Part shown: positions 4,284-27,739 of the stretch, piece after piece | How positions within the stretch are numbered: position 1 is the first letter of the stretch | How the letters are laid out: each line of letters opens with the position of its first letter | Origin: Coniferiporia sulphurascens | Lineage: Eukaryota > Basidiomycota > Agaricomycetes > Hymenochaetales > Hymenochaetaceae | NCBI GenBank assembly: GCA_002794785.1 | Contig: NBBA01000007.1 | Coordinates: forward strand, 1,550,001 to 1,614,000 | DNA: 64,000 nucleotides | Direction of reading: 5' to 3' | The notes under the pieces: generated by a model | Database searches by the model: none | The model's input: the letters and a program-made list of their open reading frames with translations, nothing else | What the model was told of the DNA's origin: nothing | Position numbers and translations under genes: made by a program

Positions 4284-4288
4284 GTGGG
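4284..4288. repeat. Target-site duplication of the Copia element, left copy (gtggg)
   Basis: The 5 bp gtggg immediately precedes the 5' LTR. The same 5 bp (9719-9723) immediately follows the 3' LTR. Five base pairs is the usual Ty1/Copia integrase stagger, and the pair fixes both element borders. Confidence 0.92.
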
Positions 4289-4544
4289 TATTAAATAAAT
4301 ATAACGAACGACATAAATATAGAACGTGGTCATATGAACAACCACCTTACTAAGTGAACGATAACGCAATGATAACGCCATACGATAAAAGCTAGTTAGT
4401 TATAGTAGTACTAGCCCATGGAACGTGTATATAAGGGGAGCTGGTCTCGCCCTAGAAATACATCGGTTTACGCTGATAACCCACCTTGCCTGAAGTCTCA
4501 CCACTGCACCTCATCGTCTACCACAAAGTGCGTAGATTTTAAGA
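4289..4544 (+). repeat. Copia 5' LTR (256 bp)
   Basis: It begins TATTAAAT and ends TTTTAAGA, so it lacks the usual TG...CA termini. A TATA box (TATATAAGG, 4428-4436) marks the U3 promoter. On the minus strand it contains an ATG at 4381 that opens in frame into the LINE ORF1 remnant. Confidence 0.93.
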
Positions 4545-4555
4545 GGTTATGAGCC
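4545..4555 (+). other. Primer-binding site complementary to the anticodon loop of initiator tRNA-Met
   Basis: The bases ggttatgagcc directly abut the 5' LTR. Their complement, GGCTCATAACC, is the anticodon-loop sequence of eukaryotic initiator tRNA-Met. That implies priming from an internal (half-tRNA) site, as known for Drosophila copia and yeast Ty5, rather than from a tRNA 3' end. Confidence 0.8.
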
Positions 4556-4613
4556 TTGACTCTAAACTAACGAAACGATTAACAAAAACTATACATCCTC
4601 ATATAACGAAATT

Positions 4614-7600
4614 ATGTCTGACGGACAGAAACCAAACACTCGTGAGCAAACACGTTTGCAAAAATTATCAGGATTACGAATAATAGCTAATGAACTAAAA
4701 ATAACGTACACACAGTCATCAACGATCGAAGAACTCGAAGAAAAAATTCAAAAAGCTAAAGATAGTAAAAGGTTAGTTGACCTAATACTTCAATGTAACC
4801 TAAGACAAATACCTATTAACGGAACTGAACAACAAATACAAGACCGAATAAACAGGTATGATAATTCTACCAAAGATGAAAAATCAAAAATAAGAACTGA
4901 TTATAAACTGGAACTAACGAATCACGCTAAAGATTTAGGAATATCAGATCAAGGAAAATCATCCGAAATCAGATACCGAATAAGTACGTATTTGGGCATA
5001 TCAGATCCAAATGAAAAAGCTCAATTTAAAATTGATAATCCTTATATTAAGCCAGAAGAAGAAAGCGATAAAAAAGAAGACGACGATAAAAAAGATAACG
5101 AAGAAGAAAACTCCGAAGAATCCAAAAATAACCCATCACGTGAGCCATCAGAGCCATCTGACCCTGACGATTCAGACGCTAACGATACCGAGGAAGATGA
5201 ACCGAGTATGGCAACTAAACTCGCGGAACTCCAGAAATTCTTCGACGGAATTGAGAAACTCGACGGGCACAGAAACTACAAACTCTGGAACTACAGAGTC
5301 CGAAGTGCAATCGAGAGTGCAGGTTACGGTAACCTGCTCACTAACTCCCCAGGAACTGGAGAGACTGGTATATCAAGCGCTTTATATAACGGCATTATGC
5401 GCACTATGCCCGACAAAATATTGGCTTATTATCTTAATTTCTCTAAAGATATTCCAGCGCTACTCAAAGCGCTTGACGGACGATATAACGTCCAGACAAC
5501 AATTACAAAGGGCTTTAACGAGGCTGCCCTTTTTGATATCCGAGGTCATGTCAGCCATTTCGATGGAACGCTCGATAACCTCAGCAATAAATACGAGGAA
5601 CTCATAGCCCAAGGGGTGAAAGTTTCAGAGTCGACATATATATCGGCTATTACGAGGGCAACGCCCGAACAATATCAATACGTACTCACACAGAGTGAGT
5701 TATATATAAAAACGATTAACGAAACAAATCCAGACAAAGATGAAATTGAACTAACCCCTCAATTTTTACTAACGGCACTGAGAAACGCCTTTGAGGGGTG
5801 GCGTAAAAATCACCAAAGAACAGGAGCGGCGGCTAATCACCTGCCCAAGGACGAGCGGAACCACCCCTATTTCAGGGGCCGCGGACGCGGTAACAGCCGC
5901 GGTGTACAACCACGAGGTCGCGGCTATAGAGGCCGTGGAGGATACATGCGAGGACGAGGTCGAGGGGGATATTCCCCTAACCAACAATCACACGTTATTA
6001 AGTGCTATAATTGTAACAAGCTAGGGCACTTTAGTCGAGATTGCTGGGCGCCAAAAACGGAATGGACGAAGGCAGCTCAGAAGAAAAAAGAGGACGCGAA
6101 CGACGAAAAAGGAAAAGGGAAGGAAACGGGTGCGTCAGCGGCACCGACAACGACTGGGGCAAGTGCGGCCCAGGCTAAACATACCGCAGCAGCAGCAGCA
6201 ACAAACATCGCATCGAGCTCTCGAATCGAATTAAGCGCCGTAATCGGCCAAGGCGAAATTGGCGCCTTCATAACCGAAGTCGACGATAACGATTTTGACA
6301 TGGGAGAATTCCCAATTTATTCGTACAACGACTTCCTTGACAAAATCGGAAATTACGACAGCTCCATGGAAGACGTGGATGATAACAATTTAAACGTAAG
6401 CATTAACGTTATTACAACTGAAAAAATTGCTAACAATATTTATTCCTCAATGGATATAATCGATACTGGTGCAACGATACATCTAACACCATATTTAAAT
6501 CGACTACGAAATACATATAAAACCGACACAATCACGATAACGGCCGCAAACAAAACAACGTTCATGGCAAATATAGTAGGGGATCTTAAGCTTTACATCC
6601 CCAACGGACACTCGGTAAGTGTCATAAAATTATCAAACGTATACTACAATCCTAAAATGAATATGACATTAGTCTCTCAAGGACTTCTATGTCAAGACGG
6701 TTACGAATTTATCTATAAACAAAATGAATGCATAATAAAGTATCCTAATGGATCTTTATGCGGAAAAATTAAAAATACAAATGGATTGTATAGTATATTT
6801 AACAATGATGTACAAGCGGCTACAAAAAATGTAACATTATTTGAACTTCACAAAAAACTCGGGCATATAAGTTATGCTTACATAAAACGATTACTAAAAG
6901 AAGATCAAATTACAAATCAAAAAATATCAAATTACGACGAAACTCAATGCACAATTTGTCTTGAAGCAAATATAAAAAGAATGCAAATCCCAAAATTACG
7001 TATTACAAAGTTAGCCGAAAAATTTGGCGATCATATACACATGGACATATGGGGTCCAGCATCCACACATGCTATAGGAGGATATAAATATCTTCTAACA
7101 CTTGTAGATGACGCTACAAGATGGATAAAAATGATTTTATTAAAAACAAAAAATGAGGGCTTAAATGCATATACGACATGGGCTACTATGCTCAATACAC
7201 AATTTAATATAAAAATAAAAATATTACAAAGCGATAATGACTCAGTGTTTTTAAGTAAACAATTCACTGAATATTTAGAAAAACACGGAACAATACGAAA
7301 GCTGACTGTTCACGATACGCCACAACAAAATGGTGTAGCAGAACGATCACATCAAACGATTTTAAACAATACACGAGTAAATCTGCTACAAGCAAAATTA
7401 CCACCCAGTCTATGGGGAGAAGCTGTAAAATACAGTACTTACGTATACAATAGAACGCCAAAGAGCGCTATTAATTTTAAAACACCATATTTCAAACGAT
7501 ATAACGAAAATTACAACATAGACGATTTAAAAGAATTCGGCCAATATTGCATAATAAAACAAGAAGACGTAAATAAATTACAACCAAAAGGAATATATGC

Positions 7601-9455
7601 ACAATGGTTAGGATTTGACGAAGAAAGTAAAGGTCACAGAACCTATCACAATAGAAAAATATCAGTCGAACGAAATCTACAATTTTTAGATTCTCCACCA
7701 TCTAAAATTGAAGGGGAGAATATAACAGAAAAACAAAACGAACAAATAAAAGAATTAAATGAAAGACCAATAAGAAATATTAAAGCAACGAAACGATCAT
7801 TAGGTCTAAACTTTGACGAACAAAACACAGTCGCTTATCTTACGGAATTTAATCAATTCAATACGGAATTAATAGGCGATCCGAATTCATATCAACAAGC
7901 GATCAATAGAATTGACGCAAATCAGTGGATCACGGCAATGAAAGAAGAAATAAAAACGTTAATCGAAAGATCTACATGGAAAATCATTGATCCACCAAAA
8001 GAAGCAAACATAATCGGAACAAGATTTGTTTACAAAACAAAAAGATTAGCAAACGGAGAAATCGAACGTTACAAAGCAAGATTAGTAGTTCAAGGATTTG
8101 CCCAGAAAGAAGGCATAGACTACTACTCAAACGACACATTCGCTCCAGTAGCACGATTAGCTACAGTAAGAACAATATTAAGTTGGAGCGCAACAAATGA
8201 TTACGAAATTCACCAAATCGATATAAAATCAGCTTACTTATACGGTGAATTAGAAAAAGACGAAAACATATACATAAAACCACCACCAGGAAATCTAATT
8301 GTAATAAAACCTGGACAAGTTTTAAAACTAAACAAAGCCTTATACGGACTAAAACAAGCAGGCAGACGATGGTATAAAAAATTATCAGAAATATTAATCG
8401 GAATAGGACTAACAAGAGCAGTCCAAGATAACGCAGTATTCCTAAGAAAAGATAAAGGAAAAACAATTCTAATACTTTTCATACATGTTGACGACATAAC
8501 AATATGTGGCTTAAATCTAAAAATAATAAAAGCCTTTAAAGAAGAAATTGGAAAACATGTAAAATTCACTGACGGAAACGATATACATTGGTTACTTGGT
8601 ATTGAAATTGAAAGAAACCGAGATGAAAAAATCATAAAACTAAGACAAAAACATTATATTGATAATATAATAGAAAAATACAAATTAAAAGACGCTGCAA
8701 CGGTACGAACACCAATGACACCAGGTCAAGTGTTAAAATCACTTGAAAATCCAACTAATGAAGAACTAAACTTCATGAACCAAATACCATATATGAACAT
8801 GGTTGGAGCATTACGATATGCAGCAGATTGTACGAGACCTGACATATCATTTGCAACAGGTCAATTTGCTAGGCATCTAAATAAACCTAGTATTGAACAT
8901 TACAATGCAGTAAAACACTGTTTTAAATATTTAAAAGGAACGAACGATTATTGGTTAATACTCGGAGGAAAAGAATCAATCGAGTTAACCGGATACACTG
9001 ACGCTGACGGAATGACACAAGAAGGACATAAAGCTATATCAGGATATATATTCCAAATAGGAAACGCAACGACATCCTGGTCAAGTAAAAAACAAGAATT
9101 AGTGTCATTATCAGTATGCGAAGCAGAATTACAAGCTTTAACTCATGGAGTAAAAGAAGCTATATGGCTACGAAGACTGGTTGAAGAGGTACTGCAGACC
9201 TTGGATACACCTACGAAGATATTATGTGATAATCAAGCAGCCATAACAATAGTAAACTCAACAGAACAAAAATATACGCAACGAACAAAACATATTGACA
9301 TACGAAAAGACTTCTTACGAGATTATATTGAAAATGAAACCATATCAGTTTCATATATTCCAACTGGACAGCAAAAGGCTGATATTATGACAAAAGCGCT
9401 AACGATAGAATTAATCAAACGTTTTACAAGTCTACTCCGCCTAGTAAAAGTTTGA
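4614..9455 (+). CDS. Copia Gag-Pol polyprotein, 1,613 aa, apparently intact
   Basis: Domains in order. Residues 1-130 are three helix-rich repeats resembling SAP/HeH DNA-binding modules, followed by an acidic lysine/glutamate linker. Next come the Gag core (about 195-400), an RGG-rich tract (about 420-460) and the zinc knuckle CYNCNKLGHFSRDC (about 464-477). Aspartic protease has DTGATIHL (about 617). Integrase has an HHCC finger (about 746-785) and the triad D (HMDIWG), D (LQSDND), E (GVAERSHQ). Reverse transcriptase has RLANGEIERYKARLV and the active site HVDD near residue 1291, where YVDD is commoner. RNase H has GYTDADG, CEAEL, LCDNQAA and KHIDIRKD. No stop, frameshift or lost catalytic residue is visible. 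Gag and Pol are one frame, so the Gag:Pol ratio must be set after translation. Confidence 0.97.
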   Translation: MSDGQKPNTREQTRLQKLSGLRIIANELKITYTQSSTIEELEEKIQKAKDSKRLVDLILQCNLRQIPINGTEQQIQDRINRYDNSTKDEKSKIRTDYKLELTNHAKDLGISDQGKSSEIRYRISTYLGISDPNEKAQFKIDNPYIKPEEESDKKEDDDKKDNEEENSEESKNNPSREPSEPSDPDDSDANDTEEDEPSMATKLAELQKFFDGIEKLDGHRNYKLWNYRVRSAIESAGYGNLLTNSPGTGETGISSALYNGIMRTMPDKILAYYLNFSKDIPALLKALDGRYNVQTTITKGFNEAALFDIRGHVSHFDGTLDNLSNKYEELIAQGVKVSESTYISAITRATPEQYQYVLTQSELYIKTINETNPDKDEIELTPQFLLTALRNAFEGWRKNHQRTGAAANHLPKDERNHPYFRGRGRGNSRGVQPRGRGYRGRGGYMRGRGRGGYSPNQQSHVIKCYNCNKLGHFSRDCWAPKTEWTKAAQKKKEDANDEKGKGKETGASAAPTTTGASAAQAKHTAAAAATNIASSSRIELSAVIGQGEIGAFITEVDDNDFDMGEFPIYSYNDFLDKIGNYDSSMEDVDDNNLNVSINVITTEKIANNIYSSMDIIDTGATIHLTPYLNRLRNTYKTDTITITAANKTTFMANIVGDLKLYIPNGHSVSVIKLSNVYYNPKMNMTLVSQGLLCQDGYEFIYKQNECIIKYPNGSLCGKIKNTNGLYSIFNNDVQAATKNVTLFELHKKLGHISYAYIKRLLKEDQITNQKISNYDETQCTICLEANIKRMQIPKLRITKLAEKFGDHIHMDIWGPASTHAIGGYKYLLTLVDDATRWIKMILLKTKNEGLNAYTTWATMLNTQFNIKIKILQSDNDSVFLSKQFTEYLEKHGTIRKLTVHDTPQQNGVAERSHQTILNNTRVNLLQAKLPPSLWGEAVKYSTYVYNRTPKSAINFKTPYFKRYNENYNIDDLKEFGQYCIIKQEDVNKLQPKGIYAQWLGFDEESKGHRTYHNRKISVERNLQFLDSPPSKIEGENITEKQNEQIKELNERPIRNIKATKRSLGLNFDEQNTVAYLTEFNQFNTELIGDPNSYQQAINRIDANQWITAMKEEIKTLIERSTWKIIDPPKEANIIGTRFVYKTKRLANGEIERYKARLVVQGFAQKEGIDYYSNDTFAPVARLATVRTILSWSATNDYEIHQIDIKSAYLYGELEKDENIYIKPPPGNLIVIKPGQVLKLNKALYGLKQAGRRWYKKLSEILIGIGLTRAVQDNAVFLRKDKGKTILILFIHVDDITICGLNLKIIKAFKEEIGKHVKFTDGNDIHWLLGIEIERNRDEKIIKLRQKHYIDNIIEKYKLKDAATVRTPMTPGQVLKSLENPTNEELNFMNQIPYMNMVGALRYAADCTRPDISFATGQFARHLNKPSIEHYNAVKHCFKYLKGTNDYWLILGGKESIELTGYTDADGMTQEGHKAISGYIFQIGNATTSWSSKKQELVSLSVCEAELQALTHGVKEAIWLRRLVEEVLQTLDTPTKILCDNQAAITIVNSTEQKYTQRTKHIDIRKDFLRDYIENETISVSYIPTGQQKADIMTKALTIELIKRFTSLLRLVKV

Positions 9456-9462
9456 AGGGGAG
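9451..9462 (+). other. Polypurine tract of the Copia element
   Basis: The purine-rich gaaggggag ends at the base before the 3' LTR start, the expected position for the plus-strand primer. The polyprotein TGA (9453-9455) overlaps it. Confidence 0.85.
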
Positions 9463-9718
9463 TATTAAATAAATATAACGAACGACATAAATATAGAACG
9501 TGGTCATATGAACAACCACCTTACTAAGTGAACGATAACGCAATGATAACGCCATACGATAAAAGCTAGTTAGTTATAGTAGTACTAGCCCACGGAACGT
9601 GTATATAAGGGGAGCTGGTCTCGCCCTAGAAATACATCGGTTTACGCTGATAACCCACCTTGCCTGAAGTCTCACCACTGCACCTCATCGTCTACCACAA
9701 AGTGCGTAGATTTTAAGA
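9463..9718 (+). repeat. Copia 3' LTR (256 bp)
   Basis: Same length as the 5' LTR with one mismatch over 256 bp. It is preceded by the polypurine tract and followed by the target duplication. Confidence 0.93.
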
Positions 9719-9723
9719 GTGGG
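9719..9723. repeat. Target-site duplication of the Copia element, right copy (gtggg)
   Basis: Matches 4284-4288 exactly. Removing the element plus one copy restores the LINE ORF1 reading frame. Confidence 0.92.
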
Positions 9724-17910: not shown

Positions 17911-18244
17911 AAGTTCCTGATTGCGAGAAGACCAGTCATCCATGCGGCGGCATTCCTCGACGGAGACGGGGGTGTGCTATCCTGTGCGCTATATCGCCTT
18001 ACCGTAGGCAGACGTCTCGGTAGGTAGGAAGAAAACGGTACTTGATCTGCGAAGTTCGTGAACGAAACCATATCTTTCTGTCTCAACGAAGATGTGCGTT
18101 TCTAATTACATCGCGGAACAGTCAACAGCGACATTGGTCAACATGACCAGTCCTCCGATAATAAAGGCGAATGCAACAGTGACAAGTGAGTAAACTAATT
18201 TATTGCAATGAAAAGTCACTGGTAGGCTGAGCTTCTTTTGAGAT

Positions 18245-18589
18245 TCACCGCCGCTCATCCGCAGCGTTTTCAACGCCGTCAGTGCGGCCGTTATTCCATG
18301 GGGTGACACGTACCAAGTTATGTCTTCGCCCAACATGAGGTGGATACCTCAGTTTCCTGAGCTGGACAATGAAGACGGGTTCTGCCAGAGAACAGACGGC
18401 TCTTGGGGACCGCAGGAATATATGCGATGGCCACAACTGTACTCCCAATCGAATATACACCATGCATGTCTACCCACGAAACCTAAGGATGATGCAACAT
18501 CTTCGCCCTATGTAACATTACCGAGGGATTCTGTCGTATGGACAACCCCAAAGCCCGATGATTGGAAATGCGGCCGTACGGAACATCCC
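18245..18589 (+). pseudogene. Interrupted GIPVWIVR-family gene, N-terminal piece
   Basis: The frame is open from about 18245 through MRWIPQFPELDNEDGF to CGRTEHP at 18589, where an LTR begins. Joining it, minus the LTR and one atccc copy, to the reverse complement of 21619 downward keeps frame: CAT CCC then CCC CTT GGC, giving EHPPLGRLRKEL. A start at the ATG at 18320 is possible, though the frame is open further upstream and an earlier exon is likely. This is a dispersed Agaricomycete orphan family of unknown function (recognised from memory). Confidence 0.7.
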
Positions 18590-20054
18590 TGTTAGGACCA
18601 AGGGTAACTGTGGTTAGCCGATGGAACAAGTAGTCGAGATAGAGTTGAGGCATGTGATTGAGTCAAGAATAAGTCAGTAGATGTTGGTACTTCACTCAGG
18701 AGAAGTCTGAGAGAATTGAGAAGGTGAATTAAACTGGGGGTCTAGGCTGGTCTAGGCCCTCCTTATATACATGAAGAAGAAGCTCCACTTGAAAGCAGAT
18801 GCTCCACAAGGCTCTGCAGTTGGAGCTATGACGTCTCACAGTGCCATCATAAGCTCCCCTGACTTGGAGCTGTGTACCAGTGCAAATGACCTCATTAGAG
18901 GATCATATGAGAAATAACTATCTATGATTGGCCATTGGTGCTCCACTGAGCTCCACTGTGCATCATGCGCTCCACTAGGCTCCACTGAGCTCATAGTGAA
19001 GTCATAGGTGTCATAATGACTTCACCATGATGCTTAGGCTGTGCGCGTCGCCCCACTGTTCTGCACACTACCCTGTAGTCTTATGTGCCAGTGGCTTCCT
19101 GTTGAGATGCTGCCTAACAGCTTGATGATTGGTAAGTCGTTGACTTGTCTCGTTGGCCTCCTGTACTGGTTCCTCCATGTTATCCTGTTGACTTGGACAA
19201 TTGCCCTTTTAGAGTTTGTGGCTGGCTTCGGTAAGCACTTCGGTTCCTGCCGAGTGTGGCTTAATTGCGTAATGCGATATCGGCTAAAGGTCCATAGGCA
19301 GGTACCTTTCGGTTGGTGTCCTGTCATCGATCACATTGTCTAGTGGTTCGTTAATGTGGTTTATCCTAGCGATACATTGCGTGTATCCTGGAGGTGGTGC
19401 CAGGGGTGATCCATTTGATAACCATAGTGTTATCACGTAAAGATTAACATTGCCGATCTGTTGATCGGCAGTCGTTGATCCCTTTGCTGATAGATTCTCA
19501 AAGAGGGTGATTACCTTTGCGCGTAATCGGTGAGTGTTAGCTAGGAATGTGTTATCCTGCAACATCCTGTACAGGAAGGATCCTGAGACCACTTGTAGGT
19601 CACATTCCCTGTCATGTATGTGCGGGTTCACTATTGTCTGGACATGGACGTTGTGCAAAAACTCCTGTACATCAAAGATGTACATTTGTATCGTGTGCAT
19701 TACCCTGACCTCCGTGCCATCACCTATAGGGTCTACAGCATGATCTGTAGTTACCTGGCAGTTTGTGTACCCTGCCATGTAAAAGCATTCAGTTATTACT
19801 GTGTTAAATGCTTCCCATGATTGATTGTATGTGGTCCGGCATTGGTGGCAGAGTATTGACGGGTCAAGAGTCTTTAGCAGTCACTTGAGCATTGTGATTG
19901 GCCTGATGTTCCCAAGAAGTCCTGGTTTTCTAGTTAGTTCCATCCCCATGTTGAATGATCGCTGGATAGTCTCTGTGGGAGTCCCTTCCTGTATTGGTAG
20001 TCGCTGGTATCGTTGCCTAAGCTTGTAAGCAAGCTTATTCATCAATTCCTAACA
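18590..20054 (-). repeat. Solo LTR, 1,465 bp, minus orientation
   Basis: Termini are TGTTAGGA...TCCTAACA with TG/CA ends. It is the inverted twin of 21625-23089, with equal length and identical translations in every compared frame. U3 is very long; TATATAAGG is at about 18762-18770 (minus strand), leaving about 170 bp of R-U5. Outer flank is atccc and inner flank aggtc. These do not match each other, but each matches the reverse complement of a flank of the other LTR. Confidence 0.85.
19284..19778 (-). CDS. 164-codon ORF inside the LTR (minus copy), unknown
   Basis: Same protein as the frame at 21901-22395 in the twin LTR. It starts MAGYTNCQVTTDHAVDP and ends ERYLPMDL. No motif recognised, and no signal peptide or membrane segment. 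LTRs seldom carry frames this long, so it may be chance or an accessory ORF. Identity of the copies reflects recent duplication and is not evidence of selection. Confidence 0.3.
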   Translation of the reverse strand: MAGYTNCQVTTDHAVDPIGDGTEVRVMHTIQMYIFDVQEFLHNVHVQTIVNPHIHDRECDLQVVSGSFLYRMLQDNTFLANTHRLRAKVITLFENLSAKGSTTADQQIGNVNLYVITLWLSNGSPLAPPPGYTQCIARINHINEPLDNVIDDRTPTERYLPMDL

Positions 20055-21619
20055 AGGTCGGGTTGATTACTCCTGTCGACTGGAAACATACTTAGCTGGT
20101 GGGCATCATCAACGCCACCCCAGATCTTGGCGACTGCTATCTTGTGGTTTTCTATCTCTTCTGCCGACTTCCCAGCAAACATATCCGCCGTAAATTGTCT
20201 GTTGGTGGCGAGAAAATCCATCCGGTATTGACACTCGTGTATATCCCACAGTAAATACAACCTGAACGCGTCATTATCGAGGACACTCTTGCGCCGAATA
20301 GGCAGACCGAATATTTCTGGTGTCATCGTTTTTTCGTACAGCGGAAACTGACCCTGGGCGCCAAAGAAGGTGCAGATCGTGGCATGCTGTGCTCGCCTTT
20401 TTTTGCCCGCATTTGAACCACTTGTGTTATTCCCCTCATCTGGGGCCTTTCGCTTGGATGGAACAGGCAGCGAATCGTTAAGGTGTACCAAAGCTGGCGT
20501 CACGTGTGCCTCATCCACAGGAAGAGACTGAATGTAATTCCCGTTCAGCACATCTCTCCACTCTTGAATTTTTAGCCCACCCTGCGACAGTCCATATCGA
20601 TTGAGAGCACGGTCATGACAAAATTGCCTTATGCGTATCCAATTGTGAAAATAAGTTATAGACAGTTCTGTGTCTGAAGTGTAAAACACATATGGAGGGG
20701 GAAACTTGTATTGGGCCGCCACGGCCATATTCTCCGCAATAGGTGATACTCGTTGCAACACATGCACCCACACGGCAGGTATAACGGGGTGGTCGCCATT
20801 GCCCTTTAGGCCCTTCATCTCTTGGAATACGTGGGAGGGGGGATTCCTGCTGGACTCCCTGTTGTCCACCTTCGGCTGATTTCCATTCTTCACCTTTACA
20901 TTCAGTGGAGACGGATGTGCAGACGGTGCGCCATCGTTACCAAAAGTGGTCAAGTGCGTGAGTCCTAGGACAACACCTTTGTCACCTAGCACAGACACAT
21001 CGGACGGTTTTGTGCGTTGGTGCATGGTATGGATTAGATCATCCATCCCGATCTCCTTTACTAGACTCAATCGGCCTCCGCGCAGATTTAACCCTCTACT
21101 AGGATTCAAGGATTTCATCGGTTTGCCGGACGAATCCTTCCAGGGTTCTTTGCTGAGAATAGTCGACCATGGCATCGGCTCGACAATGTCATATAGAAAT
21201 ATGTCATGGGTTATGCTTTGTACAGACCGGACTATCCACACCGGTATTCCCATCTTATACATTTCGCTACCGAGCGTGAGATTGACGCATATTACACCAC
21301 GAAATGGCAAGACCTGGTCAGTGTAACTTGCTCGACCTGTAGTCGCAATGCATTTCGCGACGACATGCTTGAAGTTGTTGTAACCGACCATCTCGATAAT
21401 GCACCGTTTAATTTCGTGGAATATATTAAACGACGCCTGCTGATAGTGTTCGCATAGACGTAATTGATCCAGTGCAAGTCGGCCTTGATCTGCTATTATG
21501 TGCATCAACTATGCACCCATATCACTGGCCTTGTCTCCCTTCCCCAGCATGTCCGCAATGGTCAGCTCTAACAGGGACCCAATTTTGTCGATTAATTCCT
21601 TGCGTAGTCTGCCAAGGGG
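20055..21619 (-). pseudogene. Interrupted GIPVWIVR-family gene, middle piece, inverted
   Basis: Read on the minus strand from 21619 the frame runs PLGRLRKELIDKIG..., hits a TAG at 21511-21509, then continues in the same frame with LMHIIADQGRL. It passes the family hallmark GIPVWIVR and a lysine/arginine-rich KKRR patch and ends at DL, where the left LTR begins (the ORF stop at 20042 lies in the LTR). Its two ends join in frame to pieces at 18245-18589 and 23090-23332 only if this segment is flipped, which shows inversion after LTR insertion. The TAG looks like CAG to TAG. Function of the family is unknown. Confidence 0.8.
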
Positions 21620-21900
21620 GGGATTGTTAGGAATTGATGAATAAGCTTGCTTACAAGCTTAGGCAACGATACCAGCGACTACCAATACAGGAAGGGACTC
21701 CCACAGAGACTATCCAGCGATCATTCAACATGGGGATGGAACTAACTAGAAAACCAGGACTTCTTGGGAACATCAGGCCAATCACAATGCTCAAGTGACT
21801 GCTAAAGACTCTTGACCCGTCAATACTCTGCCACCAATGCCGGACCACATACAATCAATCATGGGAAGCATTTAACACAGTAATAACTGAATGCTTTTAC

Positions 21901-22395
21901 ATGGCAGGGTACACAAACTGCCAGGTAACTACAGATCATGCTGTAGACCCTATAGGTGATGGCACGGAGGTCAGGGTAATGCACACGATACAAATGTACA
22001 TCTTTGATGTACAGGAGTTTTTGCACAACGTCCATGTCCAGACAATAGTGAACCCGCACATACATGACAGGGAATGTGACCTACAAGTGGTCTCAGGATC
22101 CTTCCTGTACAGGATGTTGCAGGATAACACATTCCTAGCTAACACTCACCGATTACGCGCAAAGGTAATCACCCTCTTTGAGAATCTATCAGCAAAGGGA
22201 TCAACGACTGCCGATCAACAGATCGGCAATGTTAATCTTTACGTGATAACACTATGGTTATCAAATGGATCACCCCTGGCACCACCTCCAGGATACACGC
22301 AATGTATCGCTAGGATAAACCACATTAACGAACCACTAGACAATGTGATCGATGACAGGACACCAACCGAAAGGTACCTGCCTATGGACCTTTAG
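21901..22395 (+). CDS. 164-codon ORF inside the LTR (plus copy), unknown
   Basis: Identical in translation to 19284-19778. It lies in the long U3, upstream of the TATA box. No recognisable domain. Confidence 0.3.
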   Translation: MAGYTNCQVTTDHAVDPIGDGTEVRVMHTIQMYIFDVQEFLHNVHVQTIVNPHIHDRECDLQVVSGSFLYRMLQDNTFLANTHRLRAKVITLFENLSAKGSTTADQQIGNVNLYVITLWLSNGSPLAPPPGYTQCIARINHINEPLDNVIDDRTPTERYLPMDL

Positions 22396-22909
22396 CCGAT
22401 ATCGCATTACGCAATTAAGCCACACTCGGCAGGAACCGAAGTGCTTACCGAAGCCAGCCACAAACTCTAAAAGGGCAATTGTCCAAGTCAACAGGATAAC
22501 ATGGAGGAACCAGTACAGGAGGCCAACGAGACAAGTCAACGACTTACCAATCATCAAGCTGTTAGGCAGCATCTCAACAGGAAGCCACTGGCACATAAGA
22601 CTACAGGGTAGTGTGCAGAACAGTGGGGCGACGCGCACAGCCTAAGCATCATGGTGAAGTCATTATGACACCTATGACTTCACTATGAGCTCAGTGGAGC
22701 CTAGTGGAGCGCATGATGCACAGTGGAGCTCAGTGGAGCACCAATGGCCAATCATAGATAGTTATTTCTCATATGATCCTCTAATGAGGTCATTTGCACT
22801 GGTACACAGCTCCAAGTCAGGGGAGCTTATGATGGCACTGTGAGACGTCATAGCTCCAACTGCAGAGCCTTGTGGAGCATCTGCTTTCAAGTGGAGCTTC
22901 TTCTTCATG

Positions 22910-22918
22910 TATATAAGG
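22910..22918 (+). promoter_or_regulatory. TATA box of the 1,465-bp LTR
   Basis: TATATAAGG about 170 bp before the LTR end, the expected U3/R position. The mirror site is at about 18762-18770 in the minus copy. It orients the two LTRs and shows they point away from each other. Confidence 0.65.
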
Positions 22919-23089
22919 AGGGCCTAGACCAGCCTAGACCCCCAGTTTAATTCACCTTCTCAATTCTCTCAGACTTCTCCTGAGTGAAGTACCAACATCT
23001 ACTGACTTATTCTTGACTCAATCACATGCCTCAACTCTATCTCGACTACTTGTTCCATCGGCTAACCACAGTTACCCTTGGTCCTAACA

Positions 23090-23332
23090 GACCTGTGGAA
23101 GGAACCCATTGATCGGGCGATGCTTTCAAACCTAATGTTCATCTTGAAGGACTGGCCAAATGCACCACCCAAATTTAGCGCGTCCATCAAGGGATATACT
23201 GACAAAGAATGTGCTTGCACCTTGGCGGAGTGCGTGTCTTTCTTCATGAAAGTATTCTCATCGCATTTCTGCCGCTTACCCATCCTGCTGTGTCATCCGA
23301 GCAACAATGCCATTTTTTGCGAACTGGCATAG
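23090..23332 (+). pseudogene. Interrupted GIPVWIVR-family gene, C-terminal piece
   Basis: Begins with the target duplication gacct and reads DLWKEPIDRAMLSN..., including ILKDWPNAPPKF, to a TAG at 23332. It follows in frame from the flipped middle piece (GAC CTG TGG). The hydrophobic C-terminal part before the stop may be read-through of an intron. Confidence 0.7.
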
Positions 23333-25624: not shown

Positions 25625-26599
25625 ATTGCCATTCGAGCATTGCCAGCGTATATTCTTGTGTTGCACAATAATTTTTTTCTGCTCTTATATGCACCGTTGA
25701 ATTACTGTTGAGCTTGTCGTATTTTAAACCAATTACATCCCCCCTCAGGAATGACAAGTATTGCATTGACTTTATAAGTGGAAATAAGTGAATAACTTGA
25801 GTGTGTTGACAAAGGATTAGGCCAATTCTTCTACTTGGATTATTTTTTTGGAGCCCACTTTTGAACCATTATAAGTACATCTAAGATGGCTACATGCCAG
25901 CCTTGGCTGGACAATAATTCTTCATCTTATGAAAGTCACAAGTGATCACATGTACAATGCAGATCTTACAAGGACTTAAAAGTAGGCGCAATGCTTGTTG
26001 TACTGCAGCAAAATTGTAGAAGTTTATAATACAGTCCAATACTTGTTGTTACAATCCTCCCTTTACTTTCCCTTATTGCGCGGACTCACTTCCCCTTCGC
26101 CATCATCAGTCAGTGCAACTCCCCCATTTCTCTGTCTTACTCATCCTTATTCGTCTTGCGCCATAAGACACCATGATGACGCCTTATTGCACCATCATGG
26201 CGTACCTTGCTTACTGATCACCGTACTTGTATTACCAAGGCCTTCCTTGAGTTTCCATGACCTTCCATAGTCTGGCAAACATACCTAACCAAGTTGCTAC
26301 AGTAGCAAACACATAGAGTAGCATATAAGCATGTAACTTCAGTAGCACAAGCCCTAAGCTTGTGCTCTTTGTTCATACAAGCCCATTATCTGCTACCACC
26401 AGTCTACCAAGTACCACTGAGCCAATAGTCGCTTCATCGTAACCCGACTCCTTTAAGAAGCTTCTCGCGTCCACATCGTCGATCAGGAAGCCCCCGCGAC
26501 GATCACCTTCGACTTACGACATCCAGGAGACCCTGTTGCCGTAACCATCAGCCTTGACGATCAGGAAGCCCCGATGTTGATCACCGCGTAACCGTTGAG
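25625..26599. other. Intergenic, AT-rich, no gene seen
   Basis: Short frames only. The segment 26400-26600 holds repeated GATCAGGAAGCCCC and CCGTAACC strings that introduce the tandem repeat. Confidence 0.5.
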
Positions 26600-26601
26600 C
26601 T

Positions 26602-27095
26602 TAACACTTGTAAAGCCTTACGAGAGCACACAGGAATGCCGGTGTGATATAATCAGCCATCAGGATTGCAAGTACCTTCCAAGTGTGTATGTTTCTTATC
26701 ACTTGGCACAGTACTTGTCAACACTGATAATGGCTGGCAATCCTTGGAAAAGGTTTACAATTCCACGCCTTACTTGTAGGGTCTTACAAGAGCATACAGG
26801 AATGACAGCGTGATATAATCTGCCATCAGGATTGTGAGTACCTTACAAGCATATACATTTCTTGTCACTTAGCACAGTACCTGTCAATGCTGATAAGGCT
26901 GGCAATCCTTGGTAGAGGTTTACAATACCATTCCTTACTTGTAGGGTCTTACAAGAGCATACAGTAATTACAGTGAGATACAATCTATTATAAGGCTTGC
27001 AGTACCTTACAACTGTGTAAATTTCTTATCACTCGGCACAGTACTTGTCAACACTGATAATGACAGACAATCCTTGTCAATTCTACCCAGTCTTG
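26602..27095. repeat. Tandem repeat, three diverged units of about 165 bp
   Basis: The string gagca(c/t)acaggaatg recurs at about 26624, 26790 and 26955. Each unit continues with a diverged copy of gatataatc...cagtac(t/c)tgtcaa(c/t)gctgata...caatccttgg. The third unit is most diverged (agtaattacagtgag). Confidence 0.8.
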
Positions 27096-27310: not shown

Positions 27311-27381
27311 TCGGATATGGTGTAACGGCTAACATTGCCGCCTCTCACGCGGCAGCTCGGGGTTCGACTCCCCGTATCCGA
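27311..27381 (+). tRNA. tRNA-Glu (anticodon CUC)
   Basis: The acceptor stem TCGGATA pairs with TATCCGA. The anticodon stem GCCGC/GCGGC encloses the loop CTCTCAC, with CTC at 34-36. The T arm CGGGG-TTCGACT-CCCCG contains the B box GGTTCGACTCC. There is no intron. A T-rich pol III terminator lies just downstream (ttttcttagttttt). CUC reads the GAG codon. Confidence 0.95.
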
Positions 27382-27739
27382 ATTAAAATTTTCTTAGTTT
27401 TTATTCTCGCGTGTCATTCGACCGTAACTGTAGAAACGGATCAATAAGCGTCCAATGGCACAAGGTATCTAAAATGGAGTGAAAGGGTATATAGGAAAAG
27501 CGATGGCTCAAGATCGAAAATCGGAGACGTTGGTAGTAAACTCGAAGTGAAGCAGCGGTCGGTAAACTTGACTAAATGAAGCTGAGAAACAAAGTAGTGT
27601 CCGAACTTCTAGCCAAACAATGGCCAGGTGGGTCCTGTCTGTAATATGGTGTCCCTTCAGTAGAGAGTAGGTCTGTCAGGCTTTATGCGAAGGCAAGTCC
27701 TGCGGCTCGATACTCTCTCCTGGATCATGATATGGTTCC
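27382..27739. other. Intergenic between tRNA-Glu and a zinc-finger gene
   Basis: Contains the tRNA terminator and the 3' flank of the minus-strand gene; no frame worth calling. Confidence 0.5.

Follow-up and report, generated by a model that had tools for sequence, protein, structure and literature searches.

How does a gene come to lie in three pieces, with its middle piece turned round between two opposed copies of one repeat? The question is raised by a locus of the basidiomycete Coniferiporia sulphurascens, found in a 64,000-nucleotide stretch of DNA (C7:1550001-1614000; the window, whose coordinates are counted from its first letter). Two units of 1,465 bp that resemble long terminal repeats (LTRs) lie here in opposite orientation inside one gene, and the 5-bp target duplications at their borders are exchanged between them. 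Our analysis is based on one assembly of 39.3 Mb in 31 contigs (C1, C7 and so forth denote contigs). The explanation that fits best, and that we hold to be highly probable, is homologous recombination between linked inverted units, resulting in inversion as well as gene conversion.

Two opposed units with crossed target duplications

The features of the locus are given below. The strand of a unit is set by the open frame inside it.

18242-18589, plus strand: gene piece A, 116 codons of an open stretch, ending ...GRTEHP at the left duplication
18585-18589, plus strand: target duplication 1, outer copy ATCCC
18590-20054, minus strand: left LTR-like unit, 1,465 bp, TG...CA, identical to the reverse complement of 21625-23089
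20055-21624, minus strand: inverted middle segment, 1,570 bp; the gene strand is minus here and plus in both outer pieces
20055-20059, plus strand: target duplication 2, inner copy AGGTC (GACCT on the minus strand)
20057-21508, minus strand: gene piece B2, 484 open codons
21509-21511, minus strand: in-frame TAG inside the gene
21512-21622, minus strand: gene piece B1, 37 codons, PPLGRLRKEL...DMGA; its sole listed match is short (paralogous locus L021, 19 residues, E 0.002)
21620-21624, plus strand: target duplication 1, inner copy GGGAT (ATCCC on the minus strand)
21625-23089, plus strand: right LTR-like unit, 1,465 bp
21799-22392, plus strand: open stretch in the right unit, 198 codons; the equivalent in the left unit is 19287-19880, minus strand
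23090-23094, plus strand: target duplication 2, outer copy GACCT
23090-23329, plus strand: gene piece C, 80 codons, followed by a stop at 23330-23332

The two arms are exact reverse complements over 1,465 bp (100% identity), with termini TGTTAGG...CCTAACA; a repeat search reports a match of 1,467 nt, since single outer bases (C/C and A/A) also agree. Neither the window nor any of the other loci fetched contains an N. The left unit stands between ATCCC and AGGTC and the right unit between GGGAT and GACCT, the outer flank of each being the reverse complement of the other's inner flank. An earlier note on this DNA had described these opposed repeats and their crossed flanks, and re-reading reproduces them to the base. 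Its further claim that flipping 20055-21624 restores a 5-bp duplication to each unit holds as well, given that both reverse-complement relations (GGGAT/ATCCC and GACCT/AGGTC) are present. Assuming equal base frequencies, two such 5-bp agreements are expected by chance about once in a million.

The gene itself gives a second line of evidence. At the left join piece A closes with the codon CCC, the last three bases of ATCCC, and the middle, read on the minus strand, carries CCC in the same phase; at the right join both sides read the GAC of GACCT as a codon. The statement that the three pieces fuse in frame is thus correct as to codon phase at both joins, but the middle is interrupted: on the minus strand it reads PPLGR...DMGA, then the in-frame TAG (21509-21511), then 484 open codons (21508-20057). 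This nonsense codon, absent from the earlier note, comes in addition to the two breaks. In this assembly the gene is a pseudogene; it belongs to a small family of paralogues that has no name.

Pieces A, middle and C were searched separately rather than as a rebuilt gene. Within the same genome piece B2 of the middle yields 11 matches including itself (best paralogue 49% identical over part of the length), and the middle matches six paralogous loci. Piece A finds the same six loci (best 50% identity, E 4e-34), and piece C three of them (E 7.5e-11, 2.2e-4 and 0.046). After fetching these loci (L020-L025), the order A, B, C is found on one strand in 6/6, with some weak matches; the earlier note had named failure of the rejoined protein to align with homologues end to end as evidence against its reading. 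In this comparison, where E-values refer to the small set of loci only, the strongest locus is L020 (E 1e-36 for A, 8e-73 for the middle and 3e-14 for C), and the weakest matches of piece C are those in L022 (E 0.022) and in L021 and L025 (both near 4e-4). Piece C begins 3-13 codons from the end of the middle match in L020, L022, L023 and L024. As the pieces are collinear on one strand in all six paralogous loci, segment 20055-21624 is inverted relative to the gene family.

The family has no name in Pfam. A Pfam search of the three gene pieces gave zero matches, and of five family members a single one matched, to DUF7639 only (E 0.015). A profile search against PDB gave nothing meaningful (best E 0.15), and a search of a protein collection found no match for the middle, for an open reading frame (ORF) in the best paralogue, or for the one that the unit carries. 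Single-sequence folds reached a mean predicted local distance difference test score (pLDDT) of 29.7 and 33.6 and were not used.

Crossed flanks at other loci

A first look for the unit in the genome scored 40 of 98 candidates; searches with end patterns retained 85 three-prime and 83 five-prime ends. Twelve matches with three mismatches were dropped from one of these searches, as a backwards control gave 14 and they are likely due to chance. In the other search two of three such matches were dropped, the third (C7:278709) being a known copy. Both flanks are available for 77 copies; outside this set are seven unpartnered three-prime ends, six unused five-prime ends and a second three-prime end at C2:894197. 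The duplication is a perfect 5-bp match in 47 of the 77, agrees at 4/5 bases in 6 and at three bases or fewer in 24.

Reciprocally crossed flanks occur in five linked inverted pairs, four of them independent:

Window, 18590-20054 (minus) and 21625-23089 (plus): 1,570 bp between the units
C7:750140 (plus) and 752330 (minus): 716 bp between the units; 9/10 bases crossed
C14:82708 (minus) and 108692 (plus): 24.5 kb between the units
C26:109187 (minus) and 129152 (plus): 18.5 kb between the units; flanks the same as on C14
C23:385730 (plus) and 395004 (minus): 7.8 kb between the units

Because the C14 and C26 pairs have the same crossed flanks, they represent one duplicated or allelic locus. We permuted the three-prime flanks among the 22 copies without their own duplication, requiring at least 9/10 crossed bases and counting C14/C26 once. 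The shuffles gave a mean of 0.17 crossed pairs against the four observed, a number that was reached in 0/20,000 shuffles. Loss of the own duplication follows the same pattern: it affects 16/19 copies with an inverted partner at 30 kb or less, against 8/58 others (Fisher p 3e-8), and 14/17 against 8/58 if C26 is left out. The claim of an inversion between opposed repeats is supported in two ways that do not depend on the earlier note's reasoning, by the collinearity of the paralogues (6/6) and by the crossed arrangement at other loci of the same genome.

Near-identity among the copies compared is confined to linked inverted pairs

In total 41 of about 85 copies were aligned, of which 39 are full-length and give 741 pairs (L071, 777 bp, and L072, 99 bp, were left out of the pairs). 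Ordinary full-copy pairs show a median identity of 94.1%. Only 7/741 pairs exceed 97%, and every one of these is a linked inverted pair: the window (100%), C18 (100%), C14 (99.8%), C1 (99.66%), C26 (99.66%), C23 (99.4%) and C7:750k (99.3%). The full-copy set holds eight linked inverted pairs, the sole one below 97% being that on C27 (95.6%); the remaining 733 pairs reach at most 96.2%. The earlier note had counted arm identity as a third independent proof of the inversion, next to the crossed duplications and the frame at the joins. The latter two stand. Since ordinary family members differ by about 6%, arm identity is no such proof but a record of recent homogenisation.

Two more linked inverted pairs are partly homogenised. 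In the C2 pair (C2:524996-530532; 209 bp between the units) the arms are identical over 803 bp and 92.9% alike past a 2.4-kb insertion that interrupts one of them, which is what a conversion tract halted by heterology should look like. The C8 pair (175 bp between) is identical across the 299 bp compared. In the C18 pair (C18:245572-254609), one of the seven above, identity continues for 773 bp past the units on their outer sides, with zero mismatches and one gap; conversion may here have run on beyond the unit.

Linked direct pairs are less alike: 95.5% on C25, 89.8% for C7:277/283k and 88.5% for the partial pair C1:443/463k (over 774 bp). In a fourth, C1:754/767k, only a 99-bp fragment can be compared (97%), which is uninformative. 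No informative direct pair is homogenised. In so small a sample a dependence on orientation is suggested at most, and direct pairs that recombine would delete themselves.

Five imperfect pairs together hold 32 single-base differences, 28 of which (hand count) are CpG to TpG or CpA. The observed/expected ratio of CpG is 0.46-0.63 in eight copies of the unit, against 0.97 for the window. From the zero differences across the 1,465 bp of the window arms, their last exchange would have occurred at most about 0.2% divergence ago (95%), or roughly 3.5% of the median divergence of the family.

Is the arrangement an assembly error?

The most serious alternative is that the identical repeats were not bridged during assembly, so that the middle was misoriented and the crossed flanks are artefacts. 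Such an error would yield exactly the pattern observed in the window, where the arms are identical over 1,465 bp, and our evidence comes from a single assembly. Yet the window and the fetched loci contain no N, and the arms of the four other crossed pairs differ at 3-12 positions, so that these were assembled apart. Moreover, the same crossed order is found in two contigs, C14 and C26, which are about 97% alike. The C1 pair is homogenised but uncrossed, and identity is therefore not always accompanied by crossing. Even a misoriented middle would leave the homogenisation itself real. Altogether we judge an assembly error improbable.

Homogenised arms or fresh twins?

Alternatively, both copies might stem from one template in one burst, in which case identity would merely reflect youth and a single inversion would suffice. 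Two identical copies within one gene, without a single difference, fit this idea for the window. Among the 39 of about 85 copies compared, however, pairs other than the linked inverted ones reach no more than 96.2% and give no sign of a recent burst, and the C2 pair is identical over only about half its length.

The duplicated locus on C14 and C26 (C14:82708-110167 and C26:109187-130637) is the most informative in this respect. Three of its flanks are 97.0-97.8% alike between the two contigs; the fourth, the inner right flank, is rearranged and 87-91% alike. (This inner flank of the right unit holds a small inversion between C14 and C26, as seen in L078 versus L057.) Arms that had not recombined since the duplication would match left with left and right with right. 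What we find is the reverse: the units are 96% alike between the loci and 99.8% and 99.7% alike within them. Counted by site, 54 (plus 12 gap columns) are the same within a locus and different between loci, 8 are singletons or of another kind, and a left/right difference persists at 0. The arms have therefore been homogenised and are not just fresh twins, despite the divergence of the loci. Twin insertion is thus very unlikely. As far as the assembled sequences go, gene conversion or repeated flipping is demonstrated at C14/C26 and at C2; for the window pair we infer it.

Proposed course of events and points that weigh against it

Crossed flanks, an inverted middle, homogenised arms and the recurrence of this pattern at other loci can all be read directly from the assembly. 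For the window we infer two independent insertions followed by recombination between them. Two copies of a 1.47-kb LTR-like family would have inserted in opposite orientation, about 1.57 kb apart in one gene, each producing its own 5-bp target duplication, to judge by the flanks. Recombination between the inverted copies would then have turned the intervening segment, leaving each copy with half of each duplication. The same inverted pairs would also undergo conversion or repeated flips, by which the arms stay near-identical while the family has diverged by about 6%. The recombination might have been a mitotic or meiotic crossover, a template switch at a replication fork or an event by way of a hairpin.

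Several observations do not fit this course of events easily. Crossing is seen in only five of the ten linked inverted pairs at 30 kb or less, and eight copies without an inverted partner within that distance have lost their duplication as well, which is unexplained. The C1 pair retains both its own duplications, as expected from conversion without crossover or from an even number of flips. The C27 pair, at 95.6% identity, is not homogenised and retains one of its own duplications. The C2 and C18 pairs show no duplication of either type, own or crossed. Those of C18 would be unreadable because identity runs past the unit on the outer sides; C2 is unexplained. For the second C8 copy the outer flank was not seen, and the comparison does not extend to two inverted C1 copies that lie 33 kb from each other. 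Crossed, uncrossed and unhomogenised inverted pairs thus coexist, so neither outcome is universal. The contrast in orientation is based on few linked direct pairs, with 0/2 full-length ones homogenised (Fisher p 0.07). Finally, the window arms are without differences, so that a chimeric structure would leave no trace there, and the assembly shows neither an uninverted nor an empty allele.

A bolder version of the recombination scenario treats all closely linked inverted pairs as active, reversible switches, which flip often enough to keep their arms identical while the family decays, and predicts that both orientations (two forms of the intervening genes) segregate among nuclei or strains. We regard this as conceivable, though somewhat doubtful.

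Nature of the unit

TG...CA ends and 5-bp duplications are typical of LTRs and agree with the earlier note, which spoke of solo LTRs. A full-length element of the family was found neither with end patterns (at most three mismatches) nor with an ORF search of the genome. With no parent located, solo LTR is a plausible but provisional description.

Three copies of 9.1-9.7 kb (C1:252889-261985, C14:35554-44656 and C14:1267601-1277276) were considered as full-length parents, and turned out to be nested insertions instead. Their duplications match in two cases and nearly match in one; the units are broken at unit positions 1458, 1298 and 1199, and each candidate has a single match of the unit's ORF among the matches listed. 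One of them (L061) carries a second TGTTAAG... terminus inside. The intruding retroelements measure 7.6-8.2 kb and have their integrase match opposite to the unit strand in 3/3 cases (in the integrase search 150 of 248 candidates were scored). The end flanks listed differ from copy to copy, except in the C14/C26 duplication and at the outer flank of the C18 pair; the copies seen therefore do not adjoin an internal region that they share.

The open frame of the unit spans up to 254 codons from unit position 7 (21631-22392, plus strand, in the right unit). Relatives are found in many places of the genome; among the matches listed their protein identity is 26-31% and their internal stops are mostly TGA. 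No Pfam match exceeded the cut-off. The frame may be a gene of the element, located within the repeat itself.

This leads to a last alternative, in which the unit would not be an LTR but a short, self-contained element that encodes a gene of its own, and aberrant transposition using the ends of two copies would have caused the inversions: it suits the 254-codon frame with its relatives and the lack of a full-length element among 85 three-prime and 83 five-prime ends, but not the TG...CA ends and 5-bp duplications usual in LTRs. According to PMC2775673, aberrant transposition moves a hybrid element to a new site, so that reciprocal duplications at two old sites are unexpected, whereas plain recombination accounts for these as well as for the homogenised arms; we regard this alternative as very unlikely.

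Two unlinked copies (C7:1339042-1340526 and C8:1483051-1484496) have the same near-duplication CCGTC/CCATC, each with one G/A difference at a CpG. This could be either coincidence or a target preference.

Comparison with known systems

In the open-access literature on LTR inversions with exchanged target duplications we found only PMC2775673. It describes inversion 2z3 of Drosophila buzzatii, where opposite copies of Galileo are present at both breakpoints, target duplications are exchanged and ectopic recombination is inferred. It is the direct precedent for our locus: opposite copies of one element at two breakpoints, with exchanged duplications. Galileo, however, is a DNA transposon with 7-bp duplications and chimeric copies at a natural chromosomal inversion (PMC2775673). 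Here the unit is LTR-like and measures 1.47 kb, its duplications have 5 bp, the arms are identical, the flip covers 1.57 kb inside a single gene, and several loci of one genome are involved.

Human inversions mediated by inverted repeats show signs of inversion and re-inversion, with gene conversion considered (PMC3961182). The role of inverted repeats is shared, but the human case is built on population genotypes and ours on dispersed mobile-element remnants in one assembly. Inverted retroelement pairs are also known from yeast, where Ty pairs such as fragile site FS2 are hotspots of mitotic recombination and a hairpin or fork-collapse route is proposed (PMC3778018). What was measured there were crossovers and break-induced replication between homologues rather than inversions marked by crossed duplications. 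Human LTRs undergo non-allelic gene conversion among dispersed copies, with linked ones favoured (PMC4921805), which resembles our findings. In that case the tracts are short (maximum tract 99 bp on average) and donors many, while in the present genome homogenisation covers the entire arms of linked inverted pairs. The mechanism is therefore already known. It is unusual to find several cases in one genome, in which linked inverted pairs also evolve in concert, and to be able to read all this from one assembly.

A second unit family and neighbouring features

Inside L020, a paralogue of the broken gene, lies another TG...CA unit of 1,340 bp (L020:1221-2560; C2:783220-784559) with duplication AGTTT. 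Its end patterns are found at 153 and 206 places in the genome. By eye its open frame looks distantly related to the one in the window unit; blastn between the two units finds no similarity.

In the window itself, direct repeats of 258 bp (100% identical, starts 5,174 bp apart) delimit 4288-9719, which includes an integrase match (7026-7304) in an open frame of 1,629 amino acids and is likely a young LTR element. Just left of the broken gene is a 111-nt inverted repeat, 96% complementary (17406-17516/17800-17910). Beside a tRNA-Glu(CTC) gene, a sequence of about 165 bp is present in three tandem copies that match imperfectly (26566-27076 and 27311-27382).

Implications

Target duplications tag, at base level, which flank belonged to which insertion. 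One genome can therefore serve as a ledger in which recombination among dispersed repeats is entered. In the present case that ledger records several inversions of 0.7 to 24.5 kb, with near-identity confined to linked inverted pairs in the copies compared. As a consequence, arm identity is unusable for dating insertions in such pairs, and the rate and orientation bias of inverted-repeat recombination become directly measurable in a fungus.

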